In this document: one piece after another, positions 6,050 through 33,292 of the stretch
Layout of the letters: the number at the start of each line of letters is the position of its first letter
Position numbering within the stretch: the first letter of the stretch is position 1
Assembly: GCF_029761935.1 (NCBI RefSeq)
Contig: NZ_CP121699.1
Coordinates: 124,001-188,000, forward strand
Direction of reading: 5' to 3'
Source: Microbacterium testaceum
GTDB taxonomy: Bacteria; Actinomycetota; Actinomycetes; Actinomycetales; Microbacteriaceae
Length of the DNA stretch: 64,000 nucleotides
The notes under the pieces: generated by a model
The model's database searches: none
What the model saw: the letters and a program-made list of their open reading frames with translations, nothing else
Told to the model about the DNA's origin: nothing
Program-made: the position numbers and the translations under genes

Positions 6050-6450
6050 TGGGCTCCGCGCGGTTTCGCGCGGTGAACGCAACGCAGGAGTTTCGGCGGC
6101 GGGGCGGTGCACAACTCCTGCAGTTCCGCGCCGGGGGAGGCGTGGATGCCGTGGGTGCGTCGAAATATCCGGAGTTGTGTCCGGGTGGTGCTGCCGCGCG
6201 ACGCGGTGGCGTGCCGGGTTGCGGCTGCCCGCGTCGGGGCCTGGCCGCGGGCCCCGGGCTTCGCGGGGTTTGCCGCGGCGAACGCAACGCAGGAGTTTCG
6301 GCGGCGGGGGCGGTGCACAACTCCTGCAGTTCCGCGCCGGGGAGGCGTGGGTGCGTCGACATTTCCTGAGTTGTGTCGGGGTAGTGCTGCCCCGCCGCGC
6401 GGTGGCGCGTCGGTCGCGGCTGCCCGCGTCGGCGCCCCGCCGCGTGACCC
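6050..6450. repeat. 205-bp tandem direct repeat with alternating GGAGTTGTG words in a convergent gap
   Basis: Two degenerate copies with a period of about 205 bases (anchored at 6075 and 6280) fill most of the gap between the hydrolase and gamma-glutamyltransferase. Each copy holds a plus-strand caggagttt, then the reverse complement cacaactcctgcag about 20 bases later, then ggagttgtgt or gagttgtgt again some 50 bases on, followed by the shared stretch gcggctgcccgcgtcgg. The rest of the gap (6451-6532) is GC-rich sequence with no gene. No credible coding frame exists: stops and indels differ between the copies. See findings. Confidence 0.8.
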
Positions 6451-6532
6451 CTCGCGTTTGCGCCCCCGCGCAGCCCGGCGCCCCGCCGCATGTAGCCCGG
6501 CGCGTCGACGCCCCGACGCGCGGACCCGAGCG

Positions 6533-8428
6533 TCAGCGCCCCGCGGCGTAGCCCTGGGCTCCGCGGGGGTTCGCCGCGGCCCACAGCATGCCGTCGGCTC
6601 CGCGCCCGACGGCGGTGACGCGGCCGAGGGCCCAGTCGCCCGCGCGGCGCACGCGATGCCCGCGTTGCTCGAGCGCGGCGATGACGTCGTCGCCGATGCG
6701 GTCTTCGACGGCGACGCCCGCGGGCACCCACGTGCGTGGCCAGAACGAATCGATGAGCGCGGTGATGTTGAGGTTCGGCGCGTCGATCGCCTGCTGGGCG
6801 CTGTAGCCGCCGACGAGCATGCGCAGCAGCACGGTCAGCTGCCACTGGTCCTGCTGGTCGCCCCCGGGGGAGCCGATCGCGATGACCTCGTCGCCACGCG
6901 ATACCAGAGTCGGGGTCAGGGTCGTCCGCGGTCGCCGGCCCGGGGTGAGCGACGCCGGGTGCCCCGGCACGAGCCACGTCGCCTGCAGGCGCGTGCCCAG
7001 GCAGAACCCCAGCGACGGCACGGTCGGGGACGACTGCAGCCAGCCGCCCGACGGGGTCGCCGAGACGACGTTGCCCCAGCGGTCGATCACGTCGAGGTGG
7101 CACGTGTCGCCGCGGGTCTGCCCCGAGCGGTCGACCGTCGGTTCGCCGGTCGAGCCGTCGGTGCTCGCGTGGTCGGTGCGCAACGGTGGCAGCACCGGGT
7201 CGCGGCCCTCGGGTGATCCCGGATGCCACTGACTCGAGGCCTCGGGCCCGACCAGCGCCCGCCGGGAGGCGACGTAGTCGTCGGCGAGCAGGGCGTCGAG
7301 GTCGACGGCCCCGCCGGCGTCGCCGAACCACCCGTCGCGATCGGCGTACGAGAGCTTCTGCGCCTCGAGGAGCAGGTGCGCTCCCTCGACCGACGACGGG
7401 TCGAGGTCGTCGAAGTCCTCGATCAGCCGCAGCGTGTGCAGCAGAGCGGGTCCCTGGGTCCACGTGCCGGCCTTGAACACGTCCCACCCGCGGAAGCTCG
7501 TCGACACGGCCGGCTCGAACGAGGCGCGCCAGTCCGCCAGGTCTCGAGCATCCAGGATGCCGGGGTGATCGGCACCGTCCGCGTGCCGGTGCGGCTGCGC
7601 GATGAAGGCGGCGGCCTCGGGCAGCACCGTGGTCATCCAGTGCTCGCGGGCGGCGTCGATGCGTGCGGCGCGGTCGTCGCGCGGCGCGCGGTCGCGAGAC
7701 GCGTGGCCCGCTTGCGTGTCGTCGCGTTGCGCGTGGTCCGCCTGCGCCTGGCGGCGCTGCACGTCGTCCGCCCGCGCGTGAGCACCCTGCCCGGGGCCGA
7801 CCCCCGCTCCCGCCGCCACGAGTCCGTCGAGCACGTCGGCATACGCCGGGTTGCTCACGAGCGTGTCGACGGCGGGTGGCGTGCCCTCCGGCATCCATCG
7901 TTCTGCCGAAGTCGGCCAGTGGTCGCGGAACAGGTCGGCGACCCGGGCGATGGTCGCGGCCGCCCCCGCCACGAGCGGGTGCCCGTCGCGGGCGTAACCG
8001 ATCGCGTAGGCGAGCACGTCGCCGAGCTCCCACGTGCCGTGATCGCGCAGCAGCAGCAGCCAGGCGTCGACGGCGCCCGGCACGGCGGCGGCGAGGCCTC
8101 CCGCCCCGGGCACGAGGTCGAGCCCGCGGCCGCGGAAGTGCTCGATCGTCGCGCGCGCGGGCGCCGGGCCCTGGCCCATGAGGACGACGGGCTCCGCCCG
8201 CCCCGCGGGTCGGACGAGGGCGACGAGGTCGCCCCCGGGGCCGTTCAAGTGCGGCTCGACGACGTGCAACACGAACGCCGCCGCCACCGCCGCGTCGAAC
8301 GCGTTGCCGCCGCGCTCGAGCACGGACTGCGCGGTGGCGGTCGCTGTCCAGTGCGTCGAGGCCGACATCCCGAACGTACCCCGCAGGGTCGGCCGGGTGG
8401 TGAAGGATGCCGCCGGCGTGAACGTCAT
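6533..8428 (-). CDS. gamma-glutamyltransferase family protein
   Basis: The 631-residue protein has the Ntn-hydrolase layout of the GGT/cephalosporin acylase family. The N-terminal half carries the GGNAFDAAVAAAFVLHVVEPH signature (about 40-60) and LNGPGGDLV. The small subunit would start at the predicted autocatalytic Thr of RGDTCHLDVIDRWGN (Thr about 442), followed by SPTVPSLGFCLGTR, GRRPRTTLTPTL and the IGSPGGDQQ oxyanion motif. It would hydrolyse gamma-glutamyl bonds such as those in glutathione-like thiols. No clear signal peptide is visible. Residues of about 209-258 form a repetitive Gln/Asp/Arg/His-rich insert, described separately. The ATG start overlaps the pepP stop (ATGA, 8425-8428). 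Confidence 0.85.
   Translation of the reverse strand: MTFTPAASFTTRPTLRGTFGMSASTHWTATATAQSVLERGGNAFDAAVAAAFVLHVVEPHLNGPGGDLVALVRPAGRAEPVVLMGQGPAPARATIEHFRGRGLDLVPGAGGLAAAVPGAVDAWLLLLRDHGTWELGDVLAYAIGYARDGHPLVAGAAATIARVADLFRDHWPTSAERWMPEGTPPAVDTLVSNPAYADVLDGLVAAGAGVGPGQGAHARADDVQRRQAQADHAQRDDTQAGHASRDRAPRDDRAARIDAAREHWMTTVLPEAAAFIAQPHRHADGADHPGILDARDLADWRASFEPAVSTSFRGWDVFKAGTWTQGPALLHTLRLIEDFDDLDPSSVEGAHLLLEAQKLSYADRDGWFGDAGGAVDLDALLADDYVASRRALVGPEASSQWHPGSPEGRDPVLPPLRTDHASTDGSTGEPTVDRSGQTRGDTCHLDVIDRWGNVVSATPSGGWLQSSPTVPSLGFCLGTRLQATWLVPGHPASLTPGRRPRTTLTPTLVSRGDEVIAIGSPGGDQQDQWQLTVLLRMLVGGYSAQQAIDAPNLNITALIDSFWPRTWVPAGVAVEDRIGDDVIAALEQRGHRVRRAGDWALGRVTAVGRGADGMLWAAANPRGAQGYAAGR
7655..7804 (-). 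repeat. low-complexity insertion coding for a charged QADHAQRDD-type segment
   Basis: Within the gamma-glutamyltransferase gene, about 150 bases encode a degenerate repeat with successive blocks such as RRQAQADHAQRDD, TQAGHASRD and APRDDRAAR. At the DNA level, variants of gcgtggtccgcctgcg and gcgtgtcgtcgcgttgcg alternate. The length is a multiple of three, so the reading frame is kept. It falls in a surface loop region of the large subunit, between secondary structures, as judged from the family layout. Confidence 0.6.
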
Positions 8429-9858
8429 CGCGACAGCCGGGCGATCCACTCCTCGACCTCGTCCGCCGTGCGGGGGATACTTGCCGACAGATTGACCGGG
8501 CCGTCGGCCGTCATGACGATGTCGTCCTCGATACGCGCGCCGATGCCGCGGTACTCCTCGGGGACGGTCAGATCGTCGATCTGGAAGTACAGGCCGGGCT
8601 CGATCGTGAAGGCCATGCCGGGCTCGAGCAGACCGTCGTAGTACATGTCGCGACGCGCCTGCGCGCAGTCGTGCACGTCGATGCCGAGGTGGTGGCTCGT
8701 GCCGTGCACCATGTAGCGGCGGTGCTGACCCCCGTTGTCGGCGTGGAGCGCCTCTTCGGCGGTCACCGGGAGCAGGCCCCACTCGGCGACGCGCGCGGCG
8801 ATGACCTCCATCGCAGCCTCGTGCAGACGGCGGAACGGAACGCCGACCTTCGCGGCGGCGAACGAGGCGTCGGCGGCCTCGCGGACCGTTTCGTAGATGC
8901 GGCGCTGGATGTCGGTGAACGTGCCCGACACCGGCAGCGTGCGCGTGATGTCGGCCGTGTAGAGGCTGTCGACCTCGACGCCGGCGTCGACGAGGATGAG
9001 GTCGCCCGGCTTCACGGCACCGTCGTTGCGGGTCCAGTGCAGGTAGCACGCGTGGGGGCCCGAGGCGGCGATGGTGTCGTAGCCGACGCTGTTGCCGTCG
9101 GAGCGGGCGCGCTGGTGGAAGACGCCCTCCACGACCCGCTCGCCCCGGGGGTGCTCGATGATGCGGGGCAGCTCGGCGACGATGTCGTCGAAGCCGCGGC
9201 CCGTGACCTCCACGGCGAGGGCCAGTTCGGCGAGCTCGTACTCGTCTTTGACCAGGCGCAGCTCCGAGACGAAACGCGTGACCTCGTCGTCCTCGCCCAC
9301 GGTGCGATCGTCGTCGCCGGCCTGGAAGTCCGCGAGGTGGGCCGTGGCCAGGGCCAGGTCGGCGGCCACTCCGTCGAGGGCGGGGCGGGGGCCGATCCAG
9401 AATTCGCCGACGGTGGCATCCGAGTAGAACTCCGCCGTCGTGCGGTCGGCCCGTTCGCGGAAGTACAGCACGGCTTCGTGACCCTGGTCGCGCGGCTCGA
9501 AGACGAGGACGGCGTCGGGCTCGGCGTCGCTGCCCCATCCGGTGAGGTGGGCGAAGGCGGAGTGCGCGCGGAACGGGTAGTCGGTGTCGTTGCTGCGCTG
9601 CTTCAGCCCGCCGGCGGGGACCACGACGCGCTGCCCGGGGAAGGCCTCCGAGACGCGGGCGCGGCGACGCGCGGCCCAGGCGGCCTGCTCACGCGGCTCG
9701 GGGAGGGCTGCGGGGTGCTCGGCCCAGCCGGTCGAGATCGTGTCGAGGAAGCCGCGCGGGAACGGGGCCTTCCTGTTGCTGGGGGCGTCGAGTTCGGTCG
9801 TCTCGGCCTGGGGCTCGGCGGTCGTCGCGGTCGTGTCGCTGGTGGAGGGGGCGTCCAT
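8425..9858 (-). CDS. pepP: Xaa-Pro aminopeptidase (aminopeptidase P family)
   Basis: The product has 477 residues. An N-terminal creatinase-like domain (about 60-220) is followed by a pita-bread metallopeptidase domain. Metal ligands are visible: the two Asp in VDAGVEVDSLYTADITRT, the His in the HGTSHHLGIDVHD stretch, the Glu in TIEPGLYF and the Glu in GIGARIEDDI. It removes N-terminal residues preceding proline using a dinuclear (usually Mn2+) centre in the cytoplasm. About 35 N-terminal residues are Thr/Ala/Glu-rich and probably disordered. It is translationally coupled to the downstream gamma-glutamyltransferase, a pairing consistent with peptide catabolism. Confidence 0.92.
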   Translation of the reverse strand: MDAPSTSDTTATTAEPQAETTELDAPSNRKAPFPRGFLDTISTGWAEHPAALPEPREQAAWAARRRARVSEAFPGQRVVVPAGGLKQRSNDTDYPFRAHSAFAHLTGWGSDAEPDAVLVFEPRDQGHEAVLYFRERADRTTAEFYSDATVGEFWIGPRPALDGVAADLALATAHLADFQAGDDDRTVGEDDEVTRFVSELRLVKDEYELAELALAVEVTGRGFDDIVAELPRIIEHPRGERVVEGVFHQRARSDGNSVGYDTIAASGPHACYLHWTRNDGAVKPGDLILVDAGVEVDSLYTADITRTLPVSGTFTDIQRRIYETVREAADASFAAAKVGVPFRRLHEAAMEVIAARVAEWGLLPVTAEEALHADNGGQHRRYMVHGTSHHLGIDVHDCAQARRDMYYDGLLEPGMAFTIEPGLYFQIDDLTVPEEYRGIGARIEDDIVMTADGPVNLSASIPRTADEVEEWIARLSR

Positions 9859-9864
9859 CGTTCC

Positions 9865-9870
9865 AGTCTC
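9865..9870 (-). promoter_or_regulatory. leaderless -10-like element of pepP
   Basis: On the minus strand GAGACT (fits NANNNT) is followed by ggaacg and the ATG at 9858, giving the six-base spacing seen at other starts in this window. Confidence 0.4.
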
Positions 9871-9981
9871 GCACCGTCGGGCGTCGCGCGCACGACGACG
9901 TGCACGGCGGTGCGTCGGGCATCGAGGGGGCGCGGGGGAACGGCATCTCGCGCCTCTCCTCCCCGCGCGGGAGGGGGAGCG

Positions 9982-11013
9982 TCAGCCGCCGGTGCGCTCG
10001 AGCTGCACGACGATGGGGCGGTGGTCGCTTCCCGAGCCGTCCAGCGATCGCATGACGACGGACGCCGAGACCGTCCAGTCGGGGGTGGCCATGACGTGGT
10101 CGATCGGCGCGCCCAGCAGGGCCGGGGCATCGGTCGGCCACGTGCCGACGCCACCGTTGCCGCTCTCGGACGCCGCATCGTGGCACCGGCCGAGGGTGCC
10201 GCCCTCGACTCCCATACCGGTCATGTGGTCGAGGGTCGCGTTGAAGTCACCCGCGAGGATGACGTTGTCGGTCGCGCACTGATCGGCCAGCCACTGCAGG
10301 TCGCTTCGCCACTGCGTCATGTACTCCTCGCGCGGGGCGACGGCGTGCGCGGCGACGATGATCGGGCCGTCGCCGGAGACGGGCATCGCGACGGCGCTCG
10401 GCACGGTCGAGGTGTTGCTCGATCCGTCGAGTGACGATTGGATGACGGAGTACTCGCCCAGCTCGGGCTTGATGAGCACGGTCGTGGAGGTGGCATCCCA
10501 TCCGGTGATGCCGTACTCGCCGTACTCGGCGTGGTGCGCCCACATCGGCTGGCCCATGTCGCGCATGAGCTCGGCGACCTGCGCCCCCGTCTCGATCGTG
10601 GTCTCGGGGAGGGTCACGACGTCGGCCTGCATGCCCACGGCGAACTGCGCGATCGATTCGGCCGAGGTGGCCGAGCCCGCGGTGTTCCACGTCATGATGC
10701 GCAGGCTCGACGCGGTCTTGGCCGGCATGTCTTCGGAGCCGAGTCCGCGCTGCGCGAGCATCGAGACGTTGACGCCGCCCGCGAGGGCGAACACGAACGC
10801 CAGGACGAGGGCCAGTGCGCGGACGGGACGGATCAGAGCGAACAGCAGCATGAGCAGTGTCGCGCCGACGAAGGCGGCCGCAAGGGGAGCCCGGAACGAG
10901 ATGACCTGCGCCAGGGGGAAGGTTCGCTCGACCCCGAACGCCGAGGGCCACGTCAGTACTGCGGCGCCCGCCGCGAAGGCGAGCGCGACCAGAAGACCGA
11001 CCAGACGACGCAC
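9982..11013 (-). CDS. membrane-anchored endonuclease/exonuclease/phosphatase family protein
   Basis: From the GTG at 11013 the product has 343 residues (12 more if the GTG at 11049 is used). The first 100 residues hold three hydrophobic helices (VGLLVALAFAAGAAVLTW and two more). The EEP fold follows: RIMTWNTAG (metal-binding Asn), TLPETTIETGAQV (metal Glu), ILAGDFNATLDH (Asp/Asn of the active site), and the closing GSGSDHRPIVVQL with the catalytic His. The active domain is probably extracellular or periplasm-facing; phosphodiester or phospholipid headgroup substrates are typical. The 11013 start is preferred because TAGGGT lies seven bases upstream, which suggests a leaderless transcript. Confidence 0.82.
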   Translation of the reverse strand: MRRLVGLLVALAFAAGAAVLTWPSAFGVERTFPLAQVISFRAPLAAAFVGATLLMLLFALIRPVRALALVLAFVFALAGGVNVSMLAQRGLGSEDMPAKTASSLRIMTWNTAGSATSAESIAQFAVGMQADVVTLPETTIETGAQVAELMRDMGQPMWAHHAEYGEYGITGWDATSTTVLIKPELGEYSVIQSSLDGSSNTSTVPSAVAMPVSGDGPIIVAAHAVAPREEYMTQWRSDLQWLADQCATDNVILAGDFNATLDHMTGMGVEGGTLGRCHDAASESGNGGVGTWPTDAPALLGAPIDHVMATPDWTVSASVVMRSLDGSGSDHRPIVVQLERTGG

Positions 11014-11020
11014 GCACCCG

Positions 11021-11026
11021 ACCCTA
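11021..11026 (-). promoter_or_regulatory. leaderless -10 element of the EEP-family gene
   Basis: On the minus strand TAGGGT is followed by seven bases and the GTG at 11013. It supports the shorter reading of this protein. Confidence 0.45.
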
Positions 11027-11087
11027 GGGGAGCCGTCTGGGAGATCCACGGATGCCGGGTGGGCGCTGCCCCTGTGAAGCGGCGCGC

Positions 11088-11093
11088 TACGCT
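11088..11093 (+). promoter_or_regulatory. leaderless -10 element of the PHP gene
   Basis: TACGCT is followed by six bases (cgacgg) and the GTG at 11100. It selects this GTG over the upstream ATG at 11052, which would put the promoter inside the coding region. Confidence 0.5.
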
Positions 11094-11099
11094 CGACGG

Positions 11100-11960
11100 G
11101 TGCAGCGTGAACGTCGATTCGAGGGTCCGAGCGACCTTCACCTGCACTCGTCGCACTCCGACGGCACCGAGCCTCCCGCTCAGGTGATGGCCGCCGCCCA
11201 CCGCCACGGTCTGCACACCGCCGCCCTCACCGACCACGACACCACGTCGGGCTGGGCCGAGGCCGCCGAGGCGGCGACCTCGCTGGGGATGACGTTCGTG
11301 CCCGGCATGGAACTGTCGGCGCGGCACCGGTGGCGCAGCGTCCACCTGTTGGCGTACCTCGTTGATCCCGACGATGCGGCGCTGCGGGCGATGACCGACC
11401 GGATCCGGTCGTCGCGACTGGATCGCGCGCAGATCATGGCCGAACGCATCTCGCACGATTACGACATCGCCTGGGACGACATCGTCGCCCAGACCACCGA
11501 CGGCGCCACCGTGGGCCGCCCGCACATCGCCGATGCGCTCGTGGCGCGCGGCATCGTGGCGGATCGCACCGAGGCGTTCGCCGGCATCCTGCACCCCTCC
11601 GGCGACTATTACGTGGCGCTGTACGCCCCCGATCCGGTCACGGCCGTCGAGCTCGTCGTGGGTGCGGGCGGCGTGCCGATCATCGCCCACCCCGCGGGGC
11701 GATCGCTCTTGCCGGACGGGGTGCTGCAGGCCATGCTCGAGGCGGGCCTGGCGGGCTTCGAGCTCGCTCACCGCGAGAACCTCCCCGAACCCACGGCCCT
11801 CCTCGCCGACCTCGCCGCCGAGCGCGACCTGATCGTCACCGGTTCGAGCGATTACCACGGTCTCGGCAAGCCCAACCTGCCGGGCGAGAACACCACGGCC
11901 GATGACATGGTTGCGCGGATCTTCGCCCGGGGCCGGGGGACGGCGCCGGTCTTCCCGTAG
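11100..11960 (+). CDS. PHP domain phosphoesterase (RNase AM/YciV-like)
   Basis: From the GTG at 11100 the protein has 286 residues and starts near the first metal motif, DLHLHSSHSDGTEPP. The other PHP motifs are ALTDHDTTSGW (about 42-52), PGMELSARH (Glu ligand), PIIAHPAGRS (His ligand) and the closing GSSDYHGLGKPN. This is the trinuclear-metal PHP fold of 3',5'-nucleoside bisphosphate phosphatase/RNase AM (YciV/TrpH) proteins, which hydrolyse phosphoesters of nucleotides or short RNAs. Genes upstream are divergent and the downstream gap holds tandem repeats, so it appears monocistronic. Confidence 0.85.
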   Translation: MQRERRFEGPSDLHLHSSHSDGTEPPAQVMAAAHRHGLHTAALTDHDTTSGWAEAAEAATSLGMTFVPGMELSARHRWRSVHLLAYLVDPDDAALRAMTDRIRSSRLDRAQIMAERISHDYDIAWDDIVAQTTDGATVGRPHIADALVARGIVADRTEAFAGILHPSGDYYVALYAPDPVTAVELVVGAGGVPIIAHPAGRSLLPDGVLQAMLEAGLAGFELAHRENLPEPTALLADLAAERDLIVTGSSDYHGLGKPNLPGENTTADDMVARIFARGRGTAPVFP

Positions 11961-12078
11961 GACGCTGCGCGGCCGCGGGGCGGGCTGTGACGCTGCGCGG
12001 TCGCCGGGCGGGCTGTGACGCTGCGCGGTCGCCGGGCGGGCTGTGACGCTGCGCGGTCGCCGGGCGGGCTGTGACGCT
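11961..12078. repeat. 28-bp tandem repeat, about 4.2 copies
   Basis: Units start at 11961, 11989, 12017 and 12045, with a fragment at 12073. The unit runs from gacgctgcgcgg to gggcgggctgt. Copies 2-4 are identical by eye; the first differs at two or three positions. The array begins directly after the stop of the PHP gene, so it would be transcribed as its 3' untranslated region. The rest of the gap to 12237 contains a nested palindrome (12098-12170) and no gene. Confidence 0.85.
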
Positions 12079-12097
12079 CGCGCGAGGGCCGGTGAGG

Positions 12098-12170
12098 GCG
12101 CGATGAACGCTCGGTGTGGCGAGAAACGCTGTGCGACCGCGTTTCTGGGTGCGGGGAGCGTTTATCGCGC
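12098..12170. repeat. nested palindrome with AAACGC core words
   Basis: Outer arms gcgcgatgaacgctc (12098-12112) and gagcgtttatcgcgc (12156-12170) are complementary at 14 of 15 positions. Inside them lie agaaacgc (12122-12129) and gcgtttct (12139-12146), a perfect 8-base pair. Outer and inner arms share the word AACGC. The element lies in the convergent gap between the PHP gene and the DEAD-box helicase. Confidence 0.7.
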
Positions 12171-12237
12171 GGGGGTGCGCGGGGCGCCCACGGGGCGGGC
12201 GGGGGATTCCGGATGCCGGCACCCCGGCGCCATGCGA

Positions 12238-12274
12238 AACGGCGCCGACCCCCGCGGAGGGGATCGGCGCCGTT
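12238..12274 (-). terminator. terminator of the DEAD-box helicase gene
   Basis: Perfect 11-base arms, aacggcgccga (12238-12248) and tcggcgccgtt (12264-12274), lie 15 bases beyond the helicase stop on the minus strand. The T-run is short, so termination may be hairpin-driven, as is common in high-GC Actinobacteria. Confidence 0.65.
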
Positions 12275-12289
12275 GTCGGCGTTCGCGTG

Positions 12290-13747
12290 TCAGGCCACGG
12301 GAGCCGACGGGGTTCCCGAGCTGCCGCCGCTGCGGCGACGACGGCGACGGCGCGGGGCCGCGTTGCCGTCGTGGTGCTCCTTGCCGGCGCCGTCGTGCGT
12401 GCCGGCGCCGCCCTCTTCGCGGGGAGCGGCGTCACCGGCGGGGGCGGTGCCCTCGGCCGACGACGATCCACCGCGACGGCGACGACGCGGGCCGCGGGTG
12501 CCCTCGGCATCCTGGCCCTCGTTCTTCTTCTCGACCTGCTTCGGCGCGACGGCCTTCGGAGCCGTCACGAGACGACCCTTGGTGCCCTCGGGGATGTCGA
12601 GGTCGGTGTAGAGGTGGGGGCTCGACGAGTAGGTCTCGGTGGGCTCGGGCTGGCCGAACTCGAGGGCGCGGTTGATGAGCGCCCACTTGTGCAGGTCGTC
12701 CCAGTCGACGAACGTGACCGCGATGCCGGTCTTGCCGGCGCGGCCGGTGCGTCCTGCCCGGTGCAGGTAGGTCTTCTCGTCGTCGGGGATCGTGTGGTTG
12801 ATGACGTGGGTGACGTCGTTGACGTCGATGCCGCGGGCGGCGACGTCGGTGGCGATCAGGACGTCCTTCTTGCCGGCCTTGAACGCGGCCATCGAGCGCT
12901 CGCGCGCCTCCTGGCTCATGTCGCCGTGGACGGCGGCGGCGTTGAAGCCGCGGTCGCCGAGCTCGTCGACGAGCTTCTGGGCGGCGCGCTTGGTGCGGGT
13001 GAAGATGACGGCCTTCTCGCGACCTTCGGCCTGGAGGATGCGGGCGATGACCTCGTCCTTGTCCAGTGAGTGCGCGCGGTAGACGAGGTGCTTGATGTTC
13101 GCCTGCGTGAGGCCCTCGTCGGGATCGTTGGCGCGCATGTGGATGGGGTTCGACATGAAGCGACGTGCGAGCGCGACGATGGGACCGGGCATGGTCGCCG
13201 AGAACAGCTGCGTGTGCCGCACGGGCGGGACCTTCGAGAAGATCTTCTCGATGTCGGCGAGGAAGCCGAGGTCGAGCATCTTGTCGGCCTCGTCGAGCAC
13301 GACCTCGGTCGCGTGCGACAGGTCGAGCAGGCGCTGGTTCGCGAGGTCGATCAGGCGGCCGGGCGTGCCGACCACGATCTGCGCGCCGGCCTTGAGCTGG
13401 TCGATCTGGCCCTCGTACGCCTTGCCGCCGTAGATGGCGACGACGCTGGTGGGGCGGTTCGAGGTCAGCATGTCCATGTCTTCGTAGACCTGCACCGCGA
13501 GCTCGCGCGTGGGAACGACGATGAGCGCCTTGACGCCCGGCTCGGGGTTCAGGCCGAGACGCTGGACGACGGGGATGCCGAAGCCGAAGGTCTTTCCGGT
13601 ACCCGTCTTGGCCTGGCCGATGATGTCCTGGCCGGGAAGGCCCAGGGGGATCGTCTGCTCCTGGATGGGGAAGGCATCGACGATGCCCTTCGATGCGAGG
13701 GCATCGACGATGTCCTGATCGATGCCGAGCTCGGCGAATGTCGTCAT
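12290..13747 (-). CDS. DEAD-box ATP-dependent RNA helicase
   Basis: From the ATG at 13747 (MTTFAELGIDQDIVDAL) the product has 485 residues. All helicase motifs are present: the Q motif (FPIQEQTIPL), AKTGTGKT (I), PTREL (Ia), TPGR (Ib), DEAD as VLDEADKMLDLGF (II), SAT (III), and the C-terminal VIFTRTKR, TDVAARGIDV and HRAGRTGRAGK (VI). A basic, repetitive tail (about 385-485, RRRRRG and RRRRRRRSGG blocks) resembles the RNA-binding tails of CsdA/RhlE-type cold-shock helicases. A 19-residue longer reading from 13804 is possible but lacks the family-typical start. It probably remodels structured RNA and ribosome intermediates. Confidence 0.92.
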   Translation of the reverse strand: MTTFAELGIDQDIVDALASKGIVDAFPIQEQTIPLGLPGQDIIGQAKTGTGKTFGFGIPVVQRLGLNPEPGVKALIVVPTRELAVQVYEDMDMLTSNRPTSVVAIYGGKAYEGQIDQLKAGAQIVVGTPGRLIDLANQRLLDLSHATEVVLDEADKMLDLGFLADIEKIFSKVPPVRHTQLFSATMPGPIVALARRFMSNPIHMRANDPDEGLTQANIKHLVYRAHSLDKDEVIARILQAEGREKAVIFTRTKRAAQKLVDELGDRGFNAAAVHGDMSQEARERSMAAFKAGKKDVLIATDVAARGIDVNDVTHVINHTIPDDEKTYLHRAGRTGRAGKTGIAVTFVDWDDLHKWALINRALEFGQPEPTETYSSSPHLYTDLDIPEGTKGRLVTAPKAVAPKQVEKKNEGQDAEGTRGPRRRRRGGSSSAEGTAPAGDAAPREEGGAGTHDGAGKEHHDGNAAPRRRRRRRSGGSSGTPSAPVA

Positions 13748-13883
13748 GAGCGTGCCTGTTCCGGCGGCGAGAGACCGCCTGGGGGAGTCGTATCCACGCC
13801 TCACTCATCCACAGGCGCGGGGCCCCGATCCGACGCCGGGGCTGTTCCACTCTACCCGGCGTGTCTCGCGGGCCCCCGACGCC

Positions 13884-13889: not shown

Positions 13890-13896
13890 GTGGTCT

Positions 13897-14613: not shown

Positions 14614-14649
14614 CGACGGTCATCGCCGGGGGCGTGCACCTCGTCGCGC

Positions 14650-21967: not shown

Positions 21968-22029
21968 CGCCACGGCTTGAGCTGGGAGGGGCCGTCCGCT
22001 CGCGGCCGTGACCCGGGCGCCGAGAGGTG

Positions 22030-22209
22030 GTTTGGGGCGCTTCAGGTGCATTGGGGTGGTCAGCGTCCGCCCCGGTGCACGGAGGGCGCCCCAATGCGAC
22101 GGTTTGTTCCCCGGTCAGGGTGCTGAAGCTGTCGCGGCGGGGTTTGGGGCGCGTTTTGTCGTTTGGGGCGCGAGAAAACCGCCCCAAACGACAGAACCCG
22201 CCCCAAACC
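22030..22209. repeat. TTTGGGGCG word cluster with nested hairpins in a convergent gap
   Basis: The 257-base gap between adnB and the phosphotransferase-fold gene holds at least seven copies or variants of TTTGGGGCG in both orientations (near 22030, 22050, 22086, 22143, 22162, 22180 and 22199). The central pair, 22157-22170 and 22180-22193, is a perfect 14-base inverted repeat with a nine-base loop. It is nested in an 11-base pair, 22141-22151 and 22199-22209. The hairpin may terminate both convergent genes, but that does not explain the extra words. Confidence 0.85.
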
Positions 22210-22224
22210 GCGGGGAGGGCCCCG

Positions 22225-26494: not shown

Positions 26495-27152
26495 GCAAGA
26501 ACCGCGCCGCCCGACCGGCCTCGGCGGCGAGGGCCACGTCGACGTCGGGTCGGGGTCTGCCGATCAGTTGGGCGGCCACCGTGGCCCAGCCCGGGTCGTG
26601 GCGGCGCTGATCGGCGTCGAGGCAGGCCAGGCACGCGGTCCGTCCCGGCGCCACGACGGGGCCGATGCGGGCGCCTGACCCGTCGAGGACGAGGGGCACA
26701 TGGGTCACGTCGTCGCGGACGAGCGGCCCCGCCCGTCGCGGGTCGACCCGGTGAGCGGCCAGCAGAACGACCCGCGTTCCGGGGGCGACGTCTTCGGTCG
26801 CCGGTCCTGCCCAGGGAACGACCCGCGTGCGGGCGGGCAATGCCGCCAGCACGGCGTGAGTCGCCCGCGCCGGCAGGTCGTCGTCGACGTGAAGGGCAAG
26901 GGGTGGATGCCGCGTCCTCCGCGCCAACGCCGGCGCGACCGCCGCGAGGAAGGCGTCGGCCTCGCCGTCCCCGGCCCCGTGCACGCGGGCGAGCCCCCGC
27001 ACAGCGGCCGGGCTCGTCCCTTCGGCCAGGGCCGCGACGACGACGTCGACCCACGAGCCGGTGAACGGCGAGACGGCCACCGCGGGGGCGCCGAACTGGA
27101 TGCTCCCGTCGGCGCGCCAGAGCGGGGGAGCGGCGGAATCGAGTCTGATCAT
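26304..27152 (-). CDS. orphan TOMM cyclodehydratase (leader-binding E1-like) protein
   Basis: From the ATG at 27152 the product has 282 residues (11 more from 27185). The hallmark is GARIGPVVAPGRTACLACLD (about 156-175), followed by RHDPGWATVAAQLIG and a late CHC. This CxxC...CxC zinc pattern with a GP(x)VxPGRTxCLxCLD stretch matches the ThiF/E1-like partner proteins of azole-forming (TOMM) cyclodehydratases. The ATP-binding adenylation motifs of true E1 enzymes are not evident. No YcaO protein, precursor peptide or dehydrogenase is nearby, so the function is open. The 3' end overlaps uvrD2 antisense by 191 bases. The start choice is uncertain. Confidence 0.6.
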   Translation of the reverse strand: MIRLDSAAPPLWRADGSIQFGAPAVAVSPFTGSWVDVVVAALAEGTSPAAVRGLARVHGAGDGEADAFLAAVAPALARRTRHPPLALHVDDDLPARATHAVLAALPARTRVVPWAGPATEDVAPGTRVVLLAAHRVDPRRAGPLVRDDVTHVPLVLDGSGARIGPVVAPGRTACLACLDADQRRHDPGWATVAAQLIGRPRPDVDVALAAEAGRAARFLLTAPIGRTTRSLHLRGDSFRRAWTLHQPSADCHCRSPEGIATETAHPDLGPAPSSPTTSARPA

Positions 27153-27214
27153 CGCCCGATCATCGCGTCGCTCGAGATCCCGCATGCCGTTGTCCCCAGG
27201 GCGAAAACGGCGAA

Positions 27215-27252
27215 ACGCCCGTGGGGAGGAACGTCGTCCTCCCCACGGGCGT
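27215..27252 (-). terminator. strong terminator of the metalloprotease gene
   Basis: Arms of 16 bases, 27215-27230 (acgcccgtggggagga) and 27237-27252, are perfectly complementary around a six-base loop. They lie between the metalloprotease stop and the start of the cyclodehydratase-like gene on the same strand. On the minus strand the hairpin is followed by ttcgccg, without a long T-run. Confidence 0.75.
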
Positions 27253-27346
27253 CAGCTCGAAGCCGGCTCGGCGCTCACAACAGCGCCCGGGTCCGCGTCA
27301 CAACGGGTCCGCCGCGCACAACGGCCATCGGCGCCCCGGGCCCGCG

Positions 27347-28855
27347 TCACACCGGGCGCTGGTCTCCCGGAGCCGCTCCATCGTCATCGCCGCCGTCGCG
27401 TCCGGCGTCACCCGCCGCGTCGCCCGCGCTCCCGGCGTCCGGTCTCCCGGCATCCGGGGCTGCAACGCCGGGCGTCCCGGCATCCGGGCTCTTGCTCCCG
27501 GCGTCGCGTCGACCGCCGTCGGCTTCCTCGGCGAGCAGCTGCGCCAATGCGTCGTCCATCGCGTCGGAGGGGGCCGCTTCGCCGCGTGAGGCGGCCGTCA
27601 GGCGCGCGATGAGCGCCGCGGGGTCGTCGATGTCCTCCGACGACGGCATGAGGTCGGGGTAGTCCCATAGCCCGTCGCGACCCTCGACGCCGACCGCGTC
27701 GGTGACGGCGCGCCACATGGCCGCGGCCTCGCGCATGCGGCGCGGGCGCAGTTCGAGGCCGACGAGGGCGCCGAGCGCCTGCTCGGCGGGACCGCCCACC
27801 GCGCGGCGGCGGCGCACGGCCTCGGCGATGCGCCCGGCCGAGGGCAGCCGCGAGGTGGCGTCCTCGGTGACGACGTCGACCCAGCCCTCGATCGTGGCGA
27901 GCAGGTTCTCGAGGCGCGTGAGGGCCGCGGTCTGCTCTTCGGAGCGCTCGGGCAGCAGGGCACCGCTCTCGAGGGCGCCGCGCAGTTCTTCGGGCTGCGT
28001 CGGGTCGAAGCGCGAGGCGAGGTCTTCGAGGGCGGCGGTGTCGACGTGGATGCCGCGGGCGAAGTCGCGCACCTGCGAGATGACGTGCAGGCGCAGCCAC
28101 CGGGCGTGACGGAACAGGCGCGCGTGAGCGAGTTCGCGGGTCGCGAGGTAGAGGGCCAACTGATCCTCGGGGATCTCGAGGTCGCGACCGAAGTCGGCGA
28201 AGTTCTGCGGCAGTATCGCGGCCTCGCCGTCGGGCATGACGGGGATGCCGACGTCTCCGCCGCCGACGACCTCGGTCGACAGGCGACCGACGACTTGACC
28301 GAGCTGGGTGGCGAAGAGCGACCCGCCGACGGTGCGCATGAGGCGACCGGCTCCGGCGATCATGTCCTGCATGTCGTCGGGGGCCTGCTGTCCGAGGGCT
28401 GCGGTGAGGGCGTCGGCGATGCTGGTCGCGACGGGCTCGGCGAGCTCCTGCCAGACGGGCAGGGTCGCGCTCACCCAGGCGCCGCGAGTGACGGCGCGCG
28501 GGGGACGGGGGAGGTCGCTGATCGAGGTGGCCTCGCCCAGCCACAGTGCCGCGAGGGTGAACGCCTGGTCGATGTCGGTGCGCTGACCGCTGGTCACGCC
28601 CAGGCCGTCCTGGTTGGCGATGTGCAGGGCCTGGCGCTCGGCCAGGCTCCAGTCGACGCCCTCGTTGGTGCCGGCGAAGGCGCCCTGCAACTGCGCCATG
28701 ACCGCCTGCAGCATCGCGGGATCGATCTGCATGCCCGACAGCCGCGAGAGCTGTTCGGGGTCGATTCCGCTGACATCGCCTGACATGAGACGGCGCATGA
28801 GTTCTTGGAACTCGTCCTCGGGGCTCCGGTCGCCGCCGGGGTTGTCGTCTGCCAC
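27347..28855 (-). CDS. zinc-dependent metalloprotease (DUF2342/COG5282 zincin family)
   Basis: This 502-residue protein starts at GTG 28855 with the ribosome binding site aaaggcgg. It matches the actinobacterial DUF2342 family (putative dinuclear zinc zincins): the core includes GSLFATQLGQVVGRLSTEVVGGGDVGIPV, LPQNFADFGRDLEIPEDQ, and the region LYLATRELAHARLFRHARWL that replaces a classical HExxH. The last about 60 residues are a low-complexity Asp/Ala/Gly/Pro tail with DAG repeats. Its neighbourhood, divergent from a PDZ/S16 protease and beside uvrD2, matches the Rv3195-Rv3194c-Rv3193c order of Mycobacterium tuberculosis. Substrate unknown. Confidence 0.82.
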   Translation of the reverse strand: MADDNPGGDRSPEDEFQELMRRLMSGDVSGIDPEQLSRLSGMQIDPAMLQAVMAQLQGAFAGTNEGVDWSLAERQALHIANQDGLGVTSGQRTDIDQAFTLAALWLGEATSISDLPRPPRAVTRGAWVSATLPVWQELAEPVATSIADALTAALGQQAPDDMQDMIAGAGRLMRTVGGSLFATQLGQVVGRLSTEVVGGGDVGIPVMPDGEAAILPQNFADFGRDLEIPEDQLALYLATRELAHARLFRHARWLRLHVISQVRDFARGIHVDTAALEDLASRFDPTQPEELRGALESGALLPERSEEQTAALTRLENLLATIEGWVDVVTEDATSRLPSAGRIAEAVRRRRAVGGPAEQALGALVGLELRPRRMREAAAMWRAVTDAVGVEGRDGLWDYPDLMPSSEDIDDPAALIARLTAASRGEAAPSDAMDDALAQLLAEEADGGRRDAGSKSPDAGTPGVAAPDAGRPDAGSAGDAAGDAGRDGGDDDGAAPGDQRPV

Positions 28856-28893
28856 TTCAGCCGCCTTTCAGCCAGGTCTGGGGGAACGAGTCC

Positions 28894-28900
28894 TACGCTA
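28894..28900. promoter_or_regulatory. overlapping divergent -10 elements (TACGCTA)
   Basis: The heptamer TACGCTA reads as TACGCT on the plus strand (28894-28899, toward the PDZ/S16 gene) and as TAGCGT on the minus strand (28900-28895, toward the metalloprotease gene). Both fit TANNNT, and the two genes are divergent with starts 45 bases (minus) and 83 bases (plus) away. This looks like a symmetrical bidirectional promoter. Confidence 0.5.
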
Positions 28901-28981
28901 GTCGCACGCTTCCCCGCATCTGTCGGCCCGGCCTCTCGCCGCTTACGCCGCGCGCGAACGACCCGGCAAAGGATTGAGACC

Positions 28982-30103
28982 GTGACCCTGTTCGATGAGA
29001 ACGTCTCCGTCGTGCCCGCCCCTCGACAGCGGTGGAGGCGCGGCACCGTCGTCGGCGTCTGGTCGCTCACGATCGCCGTGATCGTGCTGTTCGTGATGAC
29101 GTTCCTACCCTCGGCGTACGTCATCCAGCAGCCCGGCCCCGTCTACAACACGCTCGGGACCACCGCGTCGGCCGACGGCCAGCAGGTGCCCCTGATCACT
29201 GTGCCCGACGAGAAGGACTCCACGAGTACCGGTCAGCTCGACCTGCTGACCGTCCAGGTGAGCGGCAACCGCGAGCACACTCCGTCGTGGATCGAGTTGG
29301 CCTCGGCCTGGTTCGACAGCTCGCGCGCCGTCGTCCCGATCGACCGCATCTTCCCCGCGGGGCAGAGCACCGAGCAGCGCAACACCGAGAACGCCGCCCT
29401 CATGACCGACTCGCAGCTCGAGGCGAGCGCCGCGGCCCTCCGGCAGCTCGGGTACGACGTCCCGCAGCAGATCGCGGTCGGCGCGATCGACGACTCCGGG
29501 GCCGCGAAGGGCCTGCTGCAGCAGGATGACGTCATCACCTCCGTCGACGGGGCGGCGGTTTCGAACATCGACGACGTTCGCGCCGCCGTGCAGAAGGCCG
29601 CCGGAGCCCCGGTCACCGTCGGGTACGAGCGCGATGGCACGGCATCCACCGTCCAGGTCACGCCCCGGCAGACCGATGTGAACGGTCAGACGCAGTACCT
29701 GTTGGGCGTCGGGCTGATGATGACGTTCGACCTCCCCGTCGACGTGAAGATCCAGCTGAACGACGTGGGCGGCCCGAGCGCCGGCATGATGTTCGCCCTC
29801 GGCATCATCGACAAGATGTCGCCCGGCGACCTGACCGGTGGCCAGCACATCGCCGGCACCGGCACGATCGACGCCGACGGCAATGTGGGCCCGATCGGCG
29901 GCATCCGTCAGAAGCTCTACGGAGCTCGGGATGCCGGGGCCACCTGGTTCCTCGCCCCTGAGGCGAACTGCAACGAGGTCGTGGGGCACGTGCCCGACGG
30001 CATCCGGGTGTTCTCGACGTCGACGCTGAAGCAGTCGCTCACCGTGCTCGAGACCATCCGCGACGGGGGCGATCTCGACGCCCTGCCGACGTGTACTTCG
30101 TGA
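28982..30103 (+). CDS. YlbL-type PDZ/Lon-like (S16) membrane serine protease
   Basis: From the GTG at 28982 (site aaagga nearby) the product has 373 residues. One N-terminal membrane helix (about 24-46, VWSLTIAVIVLFVMTFL) is followed by an extracellular region. A PDZ domain spans about 165-235 (GLLQQDDVITSVDGAAV). A Lon-type S16 proteolytic domain completes it, with catalytic Ser in GGPSAGMMFAL and Lys in IGGIRQKLYGARDAGA, completing a Ser-Lys dyad. Family members degrade membrane or secreted proteins. It stands upstream of UPF0182 in the same direction, an order conserved in Actinobacteria. Confidence 0.88.
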   Translation: MTLFDENVSVVPAPRQRWRRGTVVGVWSLTIAVIVLFVMTFLPSAYVIQQPGPVYNTLGTTASADGQQVPLITVPDEKDSTSTGQLDLLTVQVSGNREHTPSWIELASAWFDSSRAVVPIDRIFPAGQSTEQRNTENAALMTDSQLEASAAALRQLGYDVPQQIAVGAIDDSGAAKGLLQQDDVITSVDGAAVSNIDDVRAAVQKAAGAPVTVGYERDGTASTVQVTPRQTDVNGQTQYLLGVGLMMTFDLPVDVKIQLNDVGGPSAGMMFALGIIDKMSPGDLTGGQHIAGTGTIDADGNVGPIGGIRQKLYGARDAGATWFLAPEANCNEVVGHVPDGIRVFSTSTLKQSLTVLETIRDGGDLDALPTCTS

Positions 30104-30139
30104 TCGTCCTTTCACGGCGAACCCCAGGCGGGGCGCGCC

Positions 30140-30145
30140 TAGGAT
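30140..30145 (+). promoter_or_regulatory. leaderless -10 element of the UPF0182 gene
   Basis: TAGGAT is followed by ggacgg and the GTG at 30152, with six-base spacing. It lies 37 bases after the protease stop, so UPF0182 probably has its own start site. Confidence 0.55.
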
Positions 30146-30151
30146 GGACGG

Positions 30152-33097
30152 GTGACCACGACCTCGGCGCCGAATCAGGCCACGCCTCCTAACCGCTCTC
30201 GACGGATCATCTCGATCACTCTGGCGGTGATCGCAGCGCTCGTCGTGGCGTTCTTCGTCTTCGCGAACCTGTACTCCGACTGGCTGTGGTTCTCGCAGCT
30301 GGGCTTCACCACCGTGCTGACCACCCAGTGGATCGGCCGCAGCGTGATGTTCCTCGTCGGTTTCGTCGCGATGGCGCTGCCCGTGTGGGGCGTCATCCAG
30401 CTCGCCTACCGGCTGCGGCCGGTGTACGCGCGTCTGAGCTCGCAGCTCGACCGCTACCAGGAGGTCGTCGAGCCGCTCCGTCGCCTGGCGATGTGGGGCA
30501 TCCCGATCTTCTTCGGCTTCTTCGCGGGCTTCGCCGCTTCCGCCCAGTGGGAGACCACGTGGCTGTGGTTCAACGGCGTCTCCACCTCCACCACCGACCC
30601 CCAGTTCGGTCTCGACACCGGTTTCTACCTGTTCGGGATGCCGTTCTACGCCGCCGCCCTCGGCTTTGCGTCCGCGGTGGTGCTGGTGTGCCTCCTGCTC
30701 ACGGGCGTGGTCTCGTACCTGTACGGCTCGGTGCGCGTCGGCCAGCGCGAGCTGCGCATCTCGAAGGCCGCGCGCATTCAGCTCGCGATCCTCGCCGGCC
30801 TCTACCTGCTGCTGCAGGGTGCGAGCCTTTGGCTCGACCGTTTCCGCACGCTCGTCGAGCCGTCGGAGCGCATCACCGGCCCCGGCTACGTCGGCACGAA
30901 CGCCGTCATCCCCGGACAGACGATCCTCGCGATCGCGGCCGTCATCGTGGCCCTCGCGTTCTTCGTCACGGCGTTCCTCGGTCGCTGGCGCTACCCGCTG
31001 ATCGGTACCGCGCTGCTGGTCGTCTCGGCGATCGTCGTCGGCGCCGCCATCCCGTGGGCGGTGACCACGTTCCAGGTGCGTCCGAACGAGCTCGCTCTCG
31101 AGAGCCAGTACTACCAGCGCAACCTCGACGGGACGAAGGCCGCGTACGGCCTCGACAACATCGAGAAAGAGAACTTCCAGGCCACCACGACGGCCCAGGC
31201 GGGTCAGCTGCGCAACGACGCCGAGTCCACCGCGCAGCTGCGCATCATGGACCCCGCGATCATCGGCCCGACCGTCCGTCAGCTCGAGCAGTACCGCGCG
31301 TACTACCAGTTCAACACCCCGCTCGACGTCGACCGCTACACGATCAACGGCCAGACGCAGGACACCGTGGTGTCGCTGCGCGAGCTGAACATCGGTCAGC
31401 TCGGCGACGCGGCCTCGTGGCAGAACACGACCCTCGTCTACACGCACGGCTACGGCATGGTCGCGGCCGCCGGTAACGAGCGCACCGCCGACGGCGACCC
31501 GGTCTTCCTCGAGCAGGCCATCCCCGGCACCGGCTTCCTGACCGACCTCAACTACGAGCCGCGGGTCTACTTCGGCGAGCAGTCGCCCCCGTACTCGATC
31601 GTCGGCGGACCCGAGGGCGGCGAGAACATCGAGCTCGACTACCCGCTCGGCGCCGACGGCGGCAACGAGACGCGCACGACCTTCGCGGGTAACGGCGGCC
31701 CCAGCGTCGGCAACGTTTTCAACCGCCTCATCTACGCGCTGAAGTTCCAGTCGGAGCAGATCCTCTTCTCGGACTACGTCAACTCCGACTCGCAGATCCT
31801 CTACGACCGCAACCCCAAGCAGCGCGTGCAGAAGCTCGCGCCGTACCTGACGCTCGACAGCGATCCTTACCCCACGGTCGTCGACGGACGCATCAAGTGG
31901 GTCATCGACGGCTACACCACGAGCGCGAACTACCCGTACTCGTCGGGCGTGTCGCTCTCGCGGGCGATCGCCGACTCGAACAACCCGGCCCCGACCTACG
32001 CGCTGGATGACATCAACTACATCCGCAACTCAGTCAAGGCCACGGTCGACGCCTACGACGGCTCGGTGAGCCTGTACGCGTGGGACGACCAGGACCCGCT
32101 GCTCAAGGCGTGGCAGAACATCTACCCCGCGACCATCAAGCCGTGGACCGACATGTCCTCCGACCTCATGAGCCACGTGCGCTACCCGACCGACCTGATG
32201 AAGGTGCAGCGCTCGATGCTCGGCGTCTACCACGTCGACGACGCGCGTTCGTTCTTCCAGCAGGACAACCGCTGGACGACCCCGAACGACCCGCAGGACC
32301 CGGCGACCTTCCAGCCGCCGTACTACCTGACGATGAAGATGCCGAACCAGGACGACCCGTCGTACTCGATGTTCACGAGCTTCATCCCGGCGTCTCAGGG
32401 CGGGCAGGCGAGAAACGTGCTCACGGGCTATCTCGCCGTCGACTCCAACGCGGGTAATCAGCAGGGGACGAAACGCGACGACTACGGCAAGCTCCGAATG
32501 CTCGTGATCGATTCGTCGACCACGGTGCCCGGACCCGGCCAGGTGCAGAACACGTTCGACTCCGATACGAACGTCTCGTCGCAGATCAACATTCTGAAAC
32601 AGGGGCAGTCGCAGGTGCTCAACGGCAACCTGCTGACCCTCCCTGTCGGTGGCGGTCTGTTGTATGTGCAGCCGGTGTTCGTGCAGTCGTCGGGTGATAC
32701 GAAGCTCCCGCAGCTGAGACGCGTGCTGGTCGCCTTCGGCAACAAGATCGCGTTCGAGAACACGCTCAGCGAGGCGCTCGATACGTTGTTCGGCGGTGAT
32801 TCCGGCGCGAATACGGGCGACGAGACCGTCACCCCGACCGACCAGAACAGCGGTTCGGGCGGATCGTCGGGCACCCCGGCTCCGACGGGCGACTACGCGG
32901 CCGCCCTGCAAGAGGCGCGCGACGCGCTCACGGCACGTCAGGCGGCGCTCACGAGCGGCGACCTCGCGGGCTTCGCGACGCAGGATGCCCGCCTCACCGC
33001 GGCCGTCCAGCGCCTGCTCGACCTCGAGTCGCAGGGCCAGGGCGGCACGGCCAGCACCACGCCGACCCCGGCTCCCTCGGCCACGCCCGCGGGCTGA
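30152..33097 (+). CDS. UPF0182 family large membrane protein
   Basis: The 981-residue protein has about seven N-terminal transmembrane helices (residues of about 20-320; FVFANLYSDWLWFSQLGFTT, WGIPIFFGFFAGFAASAQW and others). A large extracellular domain follows with the conserved YYQRNLDGTKAAYGLD, FGEQSPPYSIVG, IKWVIDGYTTSANYPYS and PYYLTMKMPNQDDPSYSMF stretches typical of UPF0182 (COG1615). The C-terminus is Thr/Pro/Ser-rich with a TPAPTGDYAAALQEARDALTARQAAL helix before it. The biochemical role is unknown. Length and order match the family. Confidence 0.93.
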   Translation: MTTTSAPNQATPPNRSRRIISITLAVIAALVVAFFVFANLYSDWLWFSQLGFTTVLTTQWIGRSVMFLVGFVAMALPVWGVIQLAYRLRPVYARLSSQLDRYQEVVEPLRRLAMWGIPIFFGFFAGFAASAQWETTWLWFNGVSTSTTDPQFGLDTGFYLFGMPFYAAALGFASAVVLVCLLLTGVVSYLYGSVRVGQRELRISKAARIQLAILAGLYLLLQGASLWLDRFRTLVEPSERITGPGYVGTNAVIPGQTILAIAAVIVALAFFVTAFLGRWRYPLIGTALLVVSAIVVGAAIPWAVTTFQVRPNELALESQYYQRNLDGTKAAYGLDNIEKENFQATTTAQAGQLRNDAESTAQLRIMDPAIIGPTVRQLEQYRAYYQFNTPLDVDRYTINGQTQDTVVSLRELNIGQLGDAASWQNTTLVYTHGYGMVAAAGNERTADGDPVFLEQAIPGTGFLTDLNYEPRVYFGEQSPPYSIVGGPEGGENIELDYPLGADGGNETRTTFAGNGGPSVGNVFNRLIYALKFQSEQILFSDYVNSDSQILYDRNPKQRVQKLAPYLTLDSDPYPTVVDGRIKWVIDGYTTSANYPYSSGVSLSRAIADSNNPAPTYALDDINYIRNSVKATVDAYDGSVSLYAWDDQDPLLKAWQNIYPATIKPWTDMSSDLMSHVRYPTDLMKVQRSMLGVYHVDDARSFFQQDNRWTTPNDPQDPATFQPPYYLTMKMPNQDDPSYSMFTSFIPASQGGQARNVLTGYLAVDSNAGNQQGTKRDDYGKLRMLVIDSSTTVPGPGQVQNTFDSDTNVSSQINILKQGQSQVLNGNLLTLPVGGGLLYVQPVFVQSSGDTKLPQLRRVLVAFGNKIAFENTLSEALDTLFGGDSGANTGDETVTPTDQNSGSGGSSGTPAPTGDYAAALQEARDALTARQAALTSGDLAGFATQDARLTAAVQRLLDLESQGQGGTASTTPTPAPSATPAG

Positions 33098-33107
33098 TCG
33101 ATCCCTC

Positions 33108-33144
33108 GACGCCGGCGTTCCGCTTCCCGCGGGGCGCCGGCGTC
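33108..33144 (+). terminator. terminator of the UPF0182 gene
   Basis: Perfect 10-base arms, gacgccggcg (33108-33117) and cgccggcgtc (33135-33144), lie 10 bases after the stop and are followed by gtcgttccc. This terminator is separate from the larger palindrome at 33224-33292. Confidence 0.7.
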
Positions 33145-33223
33145 GTCGTTCCCGCCGCCCCACCGCCGTCCACGACGCGCTCACGCCCCGCGTCCACCGC
33201 GCGCTCGCGCACCCCTCAGACGC

Positions 33224-33292
33224 GCGAGACTGCATCTCGCTGACAAACCTGCGTCAGGCTGACGCCCTCTCGTCAGCGAGTTGCAGTCTCGC
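33224..33292. repeat. nested palindrome with alternating CTGAC/GTCAG words
   Basis: Left arm 33224-33244 (gcgagactgca, one base, ctcgctgac) and right arm 33272-33292 are complementary at 20 of 21 positions. Inside lies a second perfect pair, gcgtca (33251-33256) and tgacgc (33260-33265). The words CTGAC and GTCAG alternate four times across the element. It sits in the convergent gap between UPF0182 and the lycopene elongase gene. Confidence 0.8.

Follow-up and report, generated by a model that had tools for sequence, protein, structure and literature searches.

Palindromic repeats in the 3′ spaces of Microbacterium testaceum genes are probably non-autonomous elements that spread by copying

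What are the long inverted repeats that stand between convergent genes in Microbacterium testaceum, and what put them there? The question is raised by a stretch of 64,000 nucleotides (the window, G000:C1:124001-188000) of a 3.38 Mb genome in one contig (G000, the home genome), in which the encoded UPF0182 protein is 99% identical to its counterpart in M. testaceum StLB037. An earlier note on this DNA had described nested inverted repeats with one shared core word in the four long convergent gaps (gaps 1 to 4), and had proposed either a REP-like or transposition-derived family resident in gaps, or a device acting on colliding transcription. The data described below support the former proposal. 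In the M. testaceum group the elements are concentrated in the spaces 3′ of genes and are depleted from divergent gaps, and they are probably non-autonomous, copy-propagating palindromic repeats of several families. The family letters (A-I and T) were assigned in this analysis, and the genes were called by a simple codon-usage caller, which missed atypical regions (44-59 kb of the window).

Long imperfect palindromes were indeed found in gaps 2, 3 and 4 (12098-12170, 22138-22212 and 33224-33292), and in two of these gaps nested arms share one core word. In gap 2, AACGC is common to the outer and inner arms, as read from the sequence, while the palindrome of gap 3, which has 75 bases and 33-nt arms that are 91% complementary, contains TTTGGGGCG at 22143 and 22162 on the plus strand and at 22180 and 22199 on the minus strand, with an extra plus-strand copy at 22031. 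The description could not be confirmed for the other two gaps. Gap 1 is a tandem duplication rather than a nested palindrome, and each of its blocks contains one two-word CACAACTCC...GAGTTGTG element, and the gap is 344, 881, 165 and 496 long in the relatives G059, G066, G060 and G061, respectively. In gap 4 a doubled word was not established; the best internal offset of its group is 11, with 19 nearly equal and lifted by the L066 element included in the group. The separate hairpins at 12238-12274 in gap 2 and 33107-33145 in gap 4 are real, and the elements are additional to them. When the sharing of words between non-orthologous gaps was checked, the words did differ from gap to gap, but they were not gap-specific: those of gaps 1 and 3 belong to dispersed families, and that of gap 2 is also found elsewhere in relatives.

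The dispersal is best seen in family A, which was first met in the sample of the home genome described below. Its members have 65 bases, with outer arms GCGTGAGGGGTCA or GCGTGAGTCGCCA and the inner word TGTCGC. A covariance model gave at least 97 strand matches in the home genome, which merged to about 49 places, and at least 46 places in G059, including one in a helicase gene (45 besides); the covariance-model copy counts for the home genome, the genus and G059 are lower bounds. Three family A copies lie within 1.4 kb at G000:C1:2496387-2497796, and the orthologous stretch of G059 (L290) also has three. Family C, the element of gap 3, was searched for in 12 relatives, and among the matches listed there were many non-orthologous places, most of them spanning little beyond the palindrome. 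The family C model matched 23 of 59 genus genomes (E 0.001, stricter filters, best 86 candidates per genome), with at least 27 strand matches in the home genome and up to at least 86 in a genome. Family B was recognized by its pairs of words, minus and then plus, 61 bases apart; the home genome has five such pairs, one in gap 1 and four at three other loci. Only this pairing stands out, because GGAGTTGTG as such occurs 21 times in the home genome, versus 26 for the reversed control. In two families the length of the elements is nearly constant: family B measures 70 bp in all five distinct copies, with a pattern admitting 58-78 bp, and family C, with the outer words fixed and 68-75 bases allowed, has 69 bases in 19 of 22 copies, 70 in two and 68 in one.

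Seven more families, some of them present in the home genome as well, were seen in relatives, with the words GAGACTGCA (D), AAACGC (E), GAGTGTCCA (F), GAACAGG (G), CGAGACT (H), CGAGACCC (I) and GAGCTTGTCGAAG (T). Outside gap 4 itself, the family D word was seen in L050 (three times), L051 and L053 only, each time in the orthologous gap. The family E word of gap 2 recurs at other places in the examined regions of G059, G066 and G060, and orthologous family E elements are present in G059, G066 (two copies) and G060. By eye, an inner core TTCYGTCGYTT is common to families A and C. In G061, hairpin arrays (L048:6877-7629, L182:2731-4456 and L183:14228-14563) combine one conserved loop, GAGCTTGTCGAAG, with two alternative stems, GGTGGC/GCCACC and GGTCCC/GGGACC. 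Outside these genomes, exact patterns of families A and C had no match in viral contigs, one copy each of families A and C had no blastn match in plasmids, and window 33200-33320 had none in phage records. The family A model, applied as a weak test to the best 35 candidates per genome in 149 genomes of the order, matched only in the home genome.

To compare gap types against shuffled sequence, the window and 20 stretches of the home genome (464 kb of 3.38 Mb) were scanned for palindromes with a score of at least 13 in gaps of 40-700 bases. The 35 convergent gaps (7.4 kb) held 17 such palindromes, as did the 110 codirectional gaps (17.5 kb), and the 58 divergent gaps (11.4 kb) held 2. Ordinary terminators are included in these counts, and five shuffles gave means of 0, 0 and 0.2, respectively. 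Long palindromes (arms of at least 22) at the examined loci numbered 63 convergent, 20 codirectional, 2 divergent, 4 edge and 29 coding, in a tally that counts overlapping and orthologous loci more than once. It is very improbable that each element is an intrinsic terminator of separate origin or a palindrome formed by chance in a GC-rich gap, a reading that the dispersed copies already contradict. Some of the scanned palindromes are ordinary terminators, and one word is no commoner, by raw count, than its control, but shuffling yields almost no palindromes, and copies at non-orthologous places resemble one another from end to end.

The confinement to convergent gaps, as seen in the earlier note, did not survive the wider search. 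Codirectional and divergent gaps are free of long elements in the window, but not genome-wide: the 49 family A places comprise 21 convergent, 20 codirectional and 4 divergent ones, one in a reading frame and three without context, although per gap the convergent type is still enriched. One of the divergent places sits in a 1.1 kb interval possibly hiding a gene, and two copies, one counted as codirectional and one as convergent, overlap a called gene at its 3′ end. The idea of a device acting on colliding transcription was dropped, since family A copies are nearly as numerous in codirectional as in convergent gaps, and nothing was found in its favor.

The comparison with related genomes showed that the content of these gaps turns over. 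Next to the UPF0182 gene, a hairpin lies 3-17 nt past the stop codon at 31 of the 42 loci examined out of 80, the gap definition having failed for several of the remaining 11. Beyond this hairpin, the family in the orthologous gap 4 differs by species and is present singly or in tandem. In close relatives an orthologous gap keeps its word with an altered copy number, and tandem copies are seen in G066 and G059. In one orthologous gap (L194:1834-2338, L230 and L320), G059 has three family C elements, while the home genome and G066 have family A. The median change of gap length in G059, G066, G060, G061 and G067 was 19, 26.5, 28, 133.5 and 59 bases for convergent gaps, 1, 1, 6, 56 and 66 for codirectional gaps, and 0, 0, 0, 2 and 32.5 for divergent gaps, the length of the last type being nearly constant in four of the five relatives.

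A more detailed picture was obtained from the family A sites of G059. For 41 of the 45 sites besides the helicase copy, both flanks were located in home sequence, mostly chosen for holding elements, and each home segment carries an element; the other four had no partner in that home sequence. Thirty-nine pairs were compared, two being dropped with home segments longer than 330 bases. In 14 of them (13 distinct home elements) both arms are of the other subtype, with an element identity of 60-75%, and in all 14 the G059 element is of the GGGGTC type and the home element of the GTCGCC type; the pair at C7:448546, which is 94% identical, was not counted as switched. The remaining pairs are 76-100% identical, with one exception at 57%, which shares its home element with a switched pair. 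With the classes as first assigned, the median flank identity was 96.8% for switched versus 97.3% for same-subtype pairs, single flanks going down to 71%. Thirty places in 20 regions of G066 showed that switching occurred in both lineages, because G066 sides with G059 at C12:140217 and with the home genome at C10:172113 and C12:68430. Some switches also altered 10-20 bases of flank, and the two copies at C8:47967 stand on opposite sides of a terminator, so that replacement within the gap is a safer description than exact point conversion.

One family A copy lies in frame within the gene of a DEAD-box helicase with a DUF3516 domain (G000:C1:3019158-3019222; L236:1501-1565), adding about 20 codons to this conserved gene. 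Eight of the 15 genomes searched carry the insertion and seven read straight through; the helicase proteins of G064, G068 and G069, which the alignment anchor missed, were read from translation. The arms at this site are GTCGCC in the home genome and GGGGTC in G059 and G066.

Several observations weigh against spread by copying. At the helicase site about 15 bases of the target differ or were replaced, and no target-site duplication was seen at this sole filled and empty site read. No clean intergenic empty site was obtained, and none of eight family C copies of G059 gave an empty site against home and G066 sequence, seven having no partner and the eighth being the L194 gap. The helicase carriers do not form one clade in a tree built from the ends of the helicase together with UPF0182 (supports 51-100, some nodes weak, UPF0182 lacking for G020 and G007), which recombination or repeated loss could also produce. 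In G067, five of eight divergent gaps also differ in length by at least 30 bases. The search for a mobilizing gene found none: PF01797 (Y1/RAYT, E <= 0.001) had no match in the home genome and matched one of 59 genus genomes, while the same search matched 5 of 14 known genomes used as a control. The occupancy of 41 of 45 sites is more constancy than free hopping needs. Family A also covaries strongly (34 double-change cells, with 0 of 500 shuffles as high, in 11 copies of two subtypes), as selection for a hairpin in place would likewise produce.

The last two observations favor the explanation that the elements are functional 3′ end devices, either bidirectional terminators lacking the U-tract or hairpins that stabilize mRNA, which are kept by selection while only the sequence version is exchanged. 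Consistent with this, among the gaps that have a family A copy, no other hairpin (score of at least 10) was found in 13 of the 21 convergent and 14 of the 19 codirectional ones. On the other hand, a second hairpin is present in the remaining 8 of the 21 convergent gaps, ordinary terminators coexist with the elements in gaps 2 and 4, and one copy lies within a reading frame. The T fraction at the foot has a median of 0.08 in family A (n 40) versus 0.33 in short hairpins (n 24), so that the T-run of an intrinsic terminator is missing. The arms of family C pair at 82.5% versus 84.0% in shuffled sequence, with no excess and no covariation of pairs, and the gap 4 element of StLB037 (L046) is decayed, its changes being uncompensated. 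The missing T-run weakens the terminator role, which retains some plausibility because 41 of 45 sites stay occupied; on balance we regard such 3′ end devices as unlikely.

Apart from pairing, several families have a regular internal spacing. In family C the words start at 1, 20, 39 and 58 (zero-based), which is an exact 19-base pitch with the orientation ++--, and the inner words, which the pattern left free, share the core GGGGCG/CGCCCC without variation in 21 of 21 copies aligned. Of 32 hand-assigned families and singletons, 8 showed a significant direct repeat within the element, against about 1.6 expected at p 0.05, in a set that is not fully independent, one place having been entered twice (L047 and L179). 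Among these eight the offset is exactly 19 bases in six, 20 in one and 11 in one (D). The pitch of families C, E, G, H and I was already known when the test was made, which leaves only T (p 0.035) and the L067 element as fresh cases. It is missing from family A (p 0.14) and from family F (p 0.93). By eye, the half GTGTCCAAGACAC of family F is palindromic, while the halves of family C are not. The L067 element (L067:6953-7012), located beside the UPF0182 gene of another species, is a doubled-word palindrome, CGCTGCAGGG, with the 19-base pitch.

This regularity could suggest binding-site arrays for a nucleoid, chromosome-organizing or regulatory DNA-binding protein, with a specificity differing by family and four sites at 19 bp pitch binding a dimer of dimers. 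The pitch in six of the eight families with a significant doubled word fits such arrays, as do the words of family C, which are invariant while the spacers drift at constant length. However, the pitch is missing from families A and F, regulators do not typically have dozens of sites in 3′ gaps and nearly none upstream of genes, and the families present change between related species, which makes binding arrays distinctly improbable.

Hence, spread of non-autonomous elements by copying remains the explanation that we favor. A trans-acting protein that processes DNA (or RNA) may recognize the repeated words or the hairpin, copy the elements into new gaps and replace resident copies. Convergent and other 3′ gaps would be the least harmful places for insertion, and the 3′ bias would arise because insertion upstream of genes does harm. 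A more specific proposal, which we put forward tentatively and with considerable doubt, is that Microbacterium has an undescribed mobile-repeat system independent of RAYT. Its enzyme would read the words or hairpins, which in several families are doubled at 19 bp pitch, copies would be inserted and replaced within the gap, and changes of specificity would drive wholesale subtype switching while the gaps stay occupied. The absence of PF01797 matches ruled out a Y1/RAYT transposase as the driver in the home genome and in 58 of the 59 genus genomes. The single match in the genus is located at G041:C15:20980-21342, and the family C model finds no copy in G041.

The features of the four gaps are collected in Table 1. 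Elsewhere in the window, 852 bases (26495-27346) have no gene call, the corresponding interval being 824-1047 in relatives, and two long open reading frames there have no Pfam match. At 44400-59000, where the gene caller fails, open reading frames match Wzz/AAA, glycosyltransferase, polysaccharide synthase and Wzy (below cut-off), and this region is probably a surface polysaccharide locus. The hexamer TATCCG forms a perfect repeat of 5.5 copies at 44571-44603. Rfam at gathering scores matched only a tRNA across the window.

Table 1. Coordinates of repeat elements and associated features in the four convergent gaps of the window
Feature	Position	Orientation	Basis
Convergent gap 1 (alpha/beta hydrolase gene > < gamma-glutamyltranspeptidase gene)	5995..6532		gene calls and Pfam; 538 long
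Tandem duplication, block ~200 bp, 6046-6217 ~ 6251-6413	6046..6413		direct repeats D1, D2, D4, D5, spacing 195-206
Family B element CACAACTCC-N52-GGAGTTGTG, 70 bp, two words	6110..6179		length in distinct copies; 61 bp word spacing
Shortened second family B copy inside the duplicated block	6316..6375		read from sequence; repeats D1, D4
28 bp tandem array, 4.4 copies, opening gap 2	11961..12084		repeat scan
Family E palindrome, word AACGC/AAACGC x4 (++--, 19 bp pitch)	12098..12170		73 bases; 35-nt arms, 74% complementary
Gap 2 ordinary terminator-like hairpin	12238..12274		like hairpin in 6/6 genomes compared
Decayed family C-like copy, gap 3	22029..22097		direct repeat D1, inverted repeat I2; short matches to query 535-597 in relatives
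Family C element, 69 bp: GTTTGGGGCG at 22142 and 22161, CGCCCCAAAC at 22180 and 22199	22141..22209	++--	19 bp pitch
Gap 4 ordinary terminator-like hairpin	33107..33145		hairpin scan and orthologous loci
Family D palindrome, outer arms GAGACTGCA, inner words CTGAC	33224..33292		69 bases; 34-nt arms, 82% complementary

Among known systems, bidirectional intrinsic terminators are similar in being palindromes between convergent genes, but family A has no T-run, the elements of gaps 2 and 4 are extra to terminators, and the families are dispersed. ERIC/IRU and NEMIS/Correia are short palindromic intergenic elements of unknown or non-autonomous mobility, the latter resembling miniature inverted-repeat transposable elements (MITEs) with target duplication. 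The elements described here differ from both in size and sequence, and the one filled and empty site read has no target duplication; as for MITEs in general, the inverted repeats are present without a duplication at that site. ERIC and NEMIS are both named in PMC3116915. In the titles and abstract openings searched, no paper on such Microbacterium repeats was found, which is not a claim that none is in print.

The nearest analogue is the REPIN, which PMC8049555 and PMC3116915 describe as a pair of inverted ends around a diverse spacer that is mobilized by RAYT; in the GI REPINs of P. fluorescens there are 71 bp between the ends (PMC3116915). As in REPINs so described, inverted conserved ends flank a diverse spacer at a fixed distance, which here is 61 bp in family B and, measured from one outer word to the other, 57 bp in family C. 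Families B (70 bp) and C (69 bp) thus combine inverted conserved ends, a variable spacer and the ability to form a hairpin. The likeness extends to hairpin potential, dozens of extragenic copies (about 49 places in family A, one of them in frame), local clusters and several families per genome. Unlike REPINs as outlined there, several families carry the arm word twice at 19 bp pitch, 14 of 39 orthologous family A pairs are of different subtype, the bias to 3′ gaps is strong, and a genome-encoded RAYT was not found, with no Y1 transposase match in the home genome and one in 59 in the genus. The elements are not filed as REPINs because PF01797 is missing, and they would work like REPINs without the REPIN transposase. 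They accompany much of the change in the length of 3′ gaps, and they matter for annotation. REPINs are explained by the RAYT transposase, whereas none is detectable for the comparable populations described here, whose copies are swapped in gaps that stay occupied; this makes it directly testable which agent copies the small repeats of bacteria and what maintains them.

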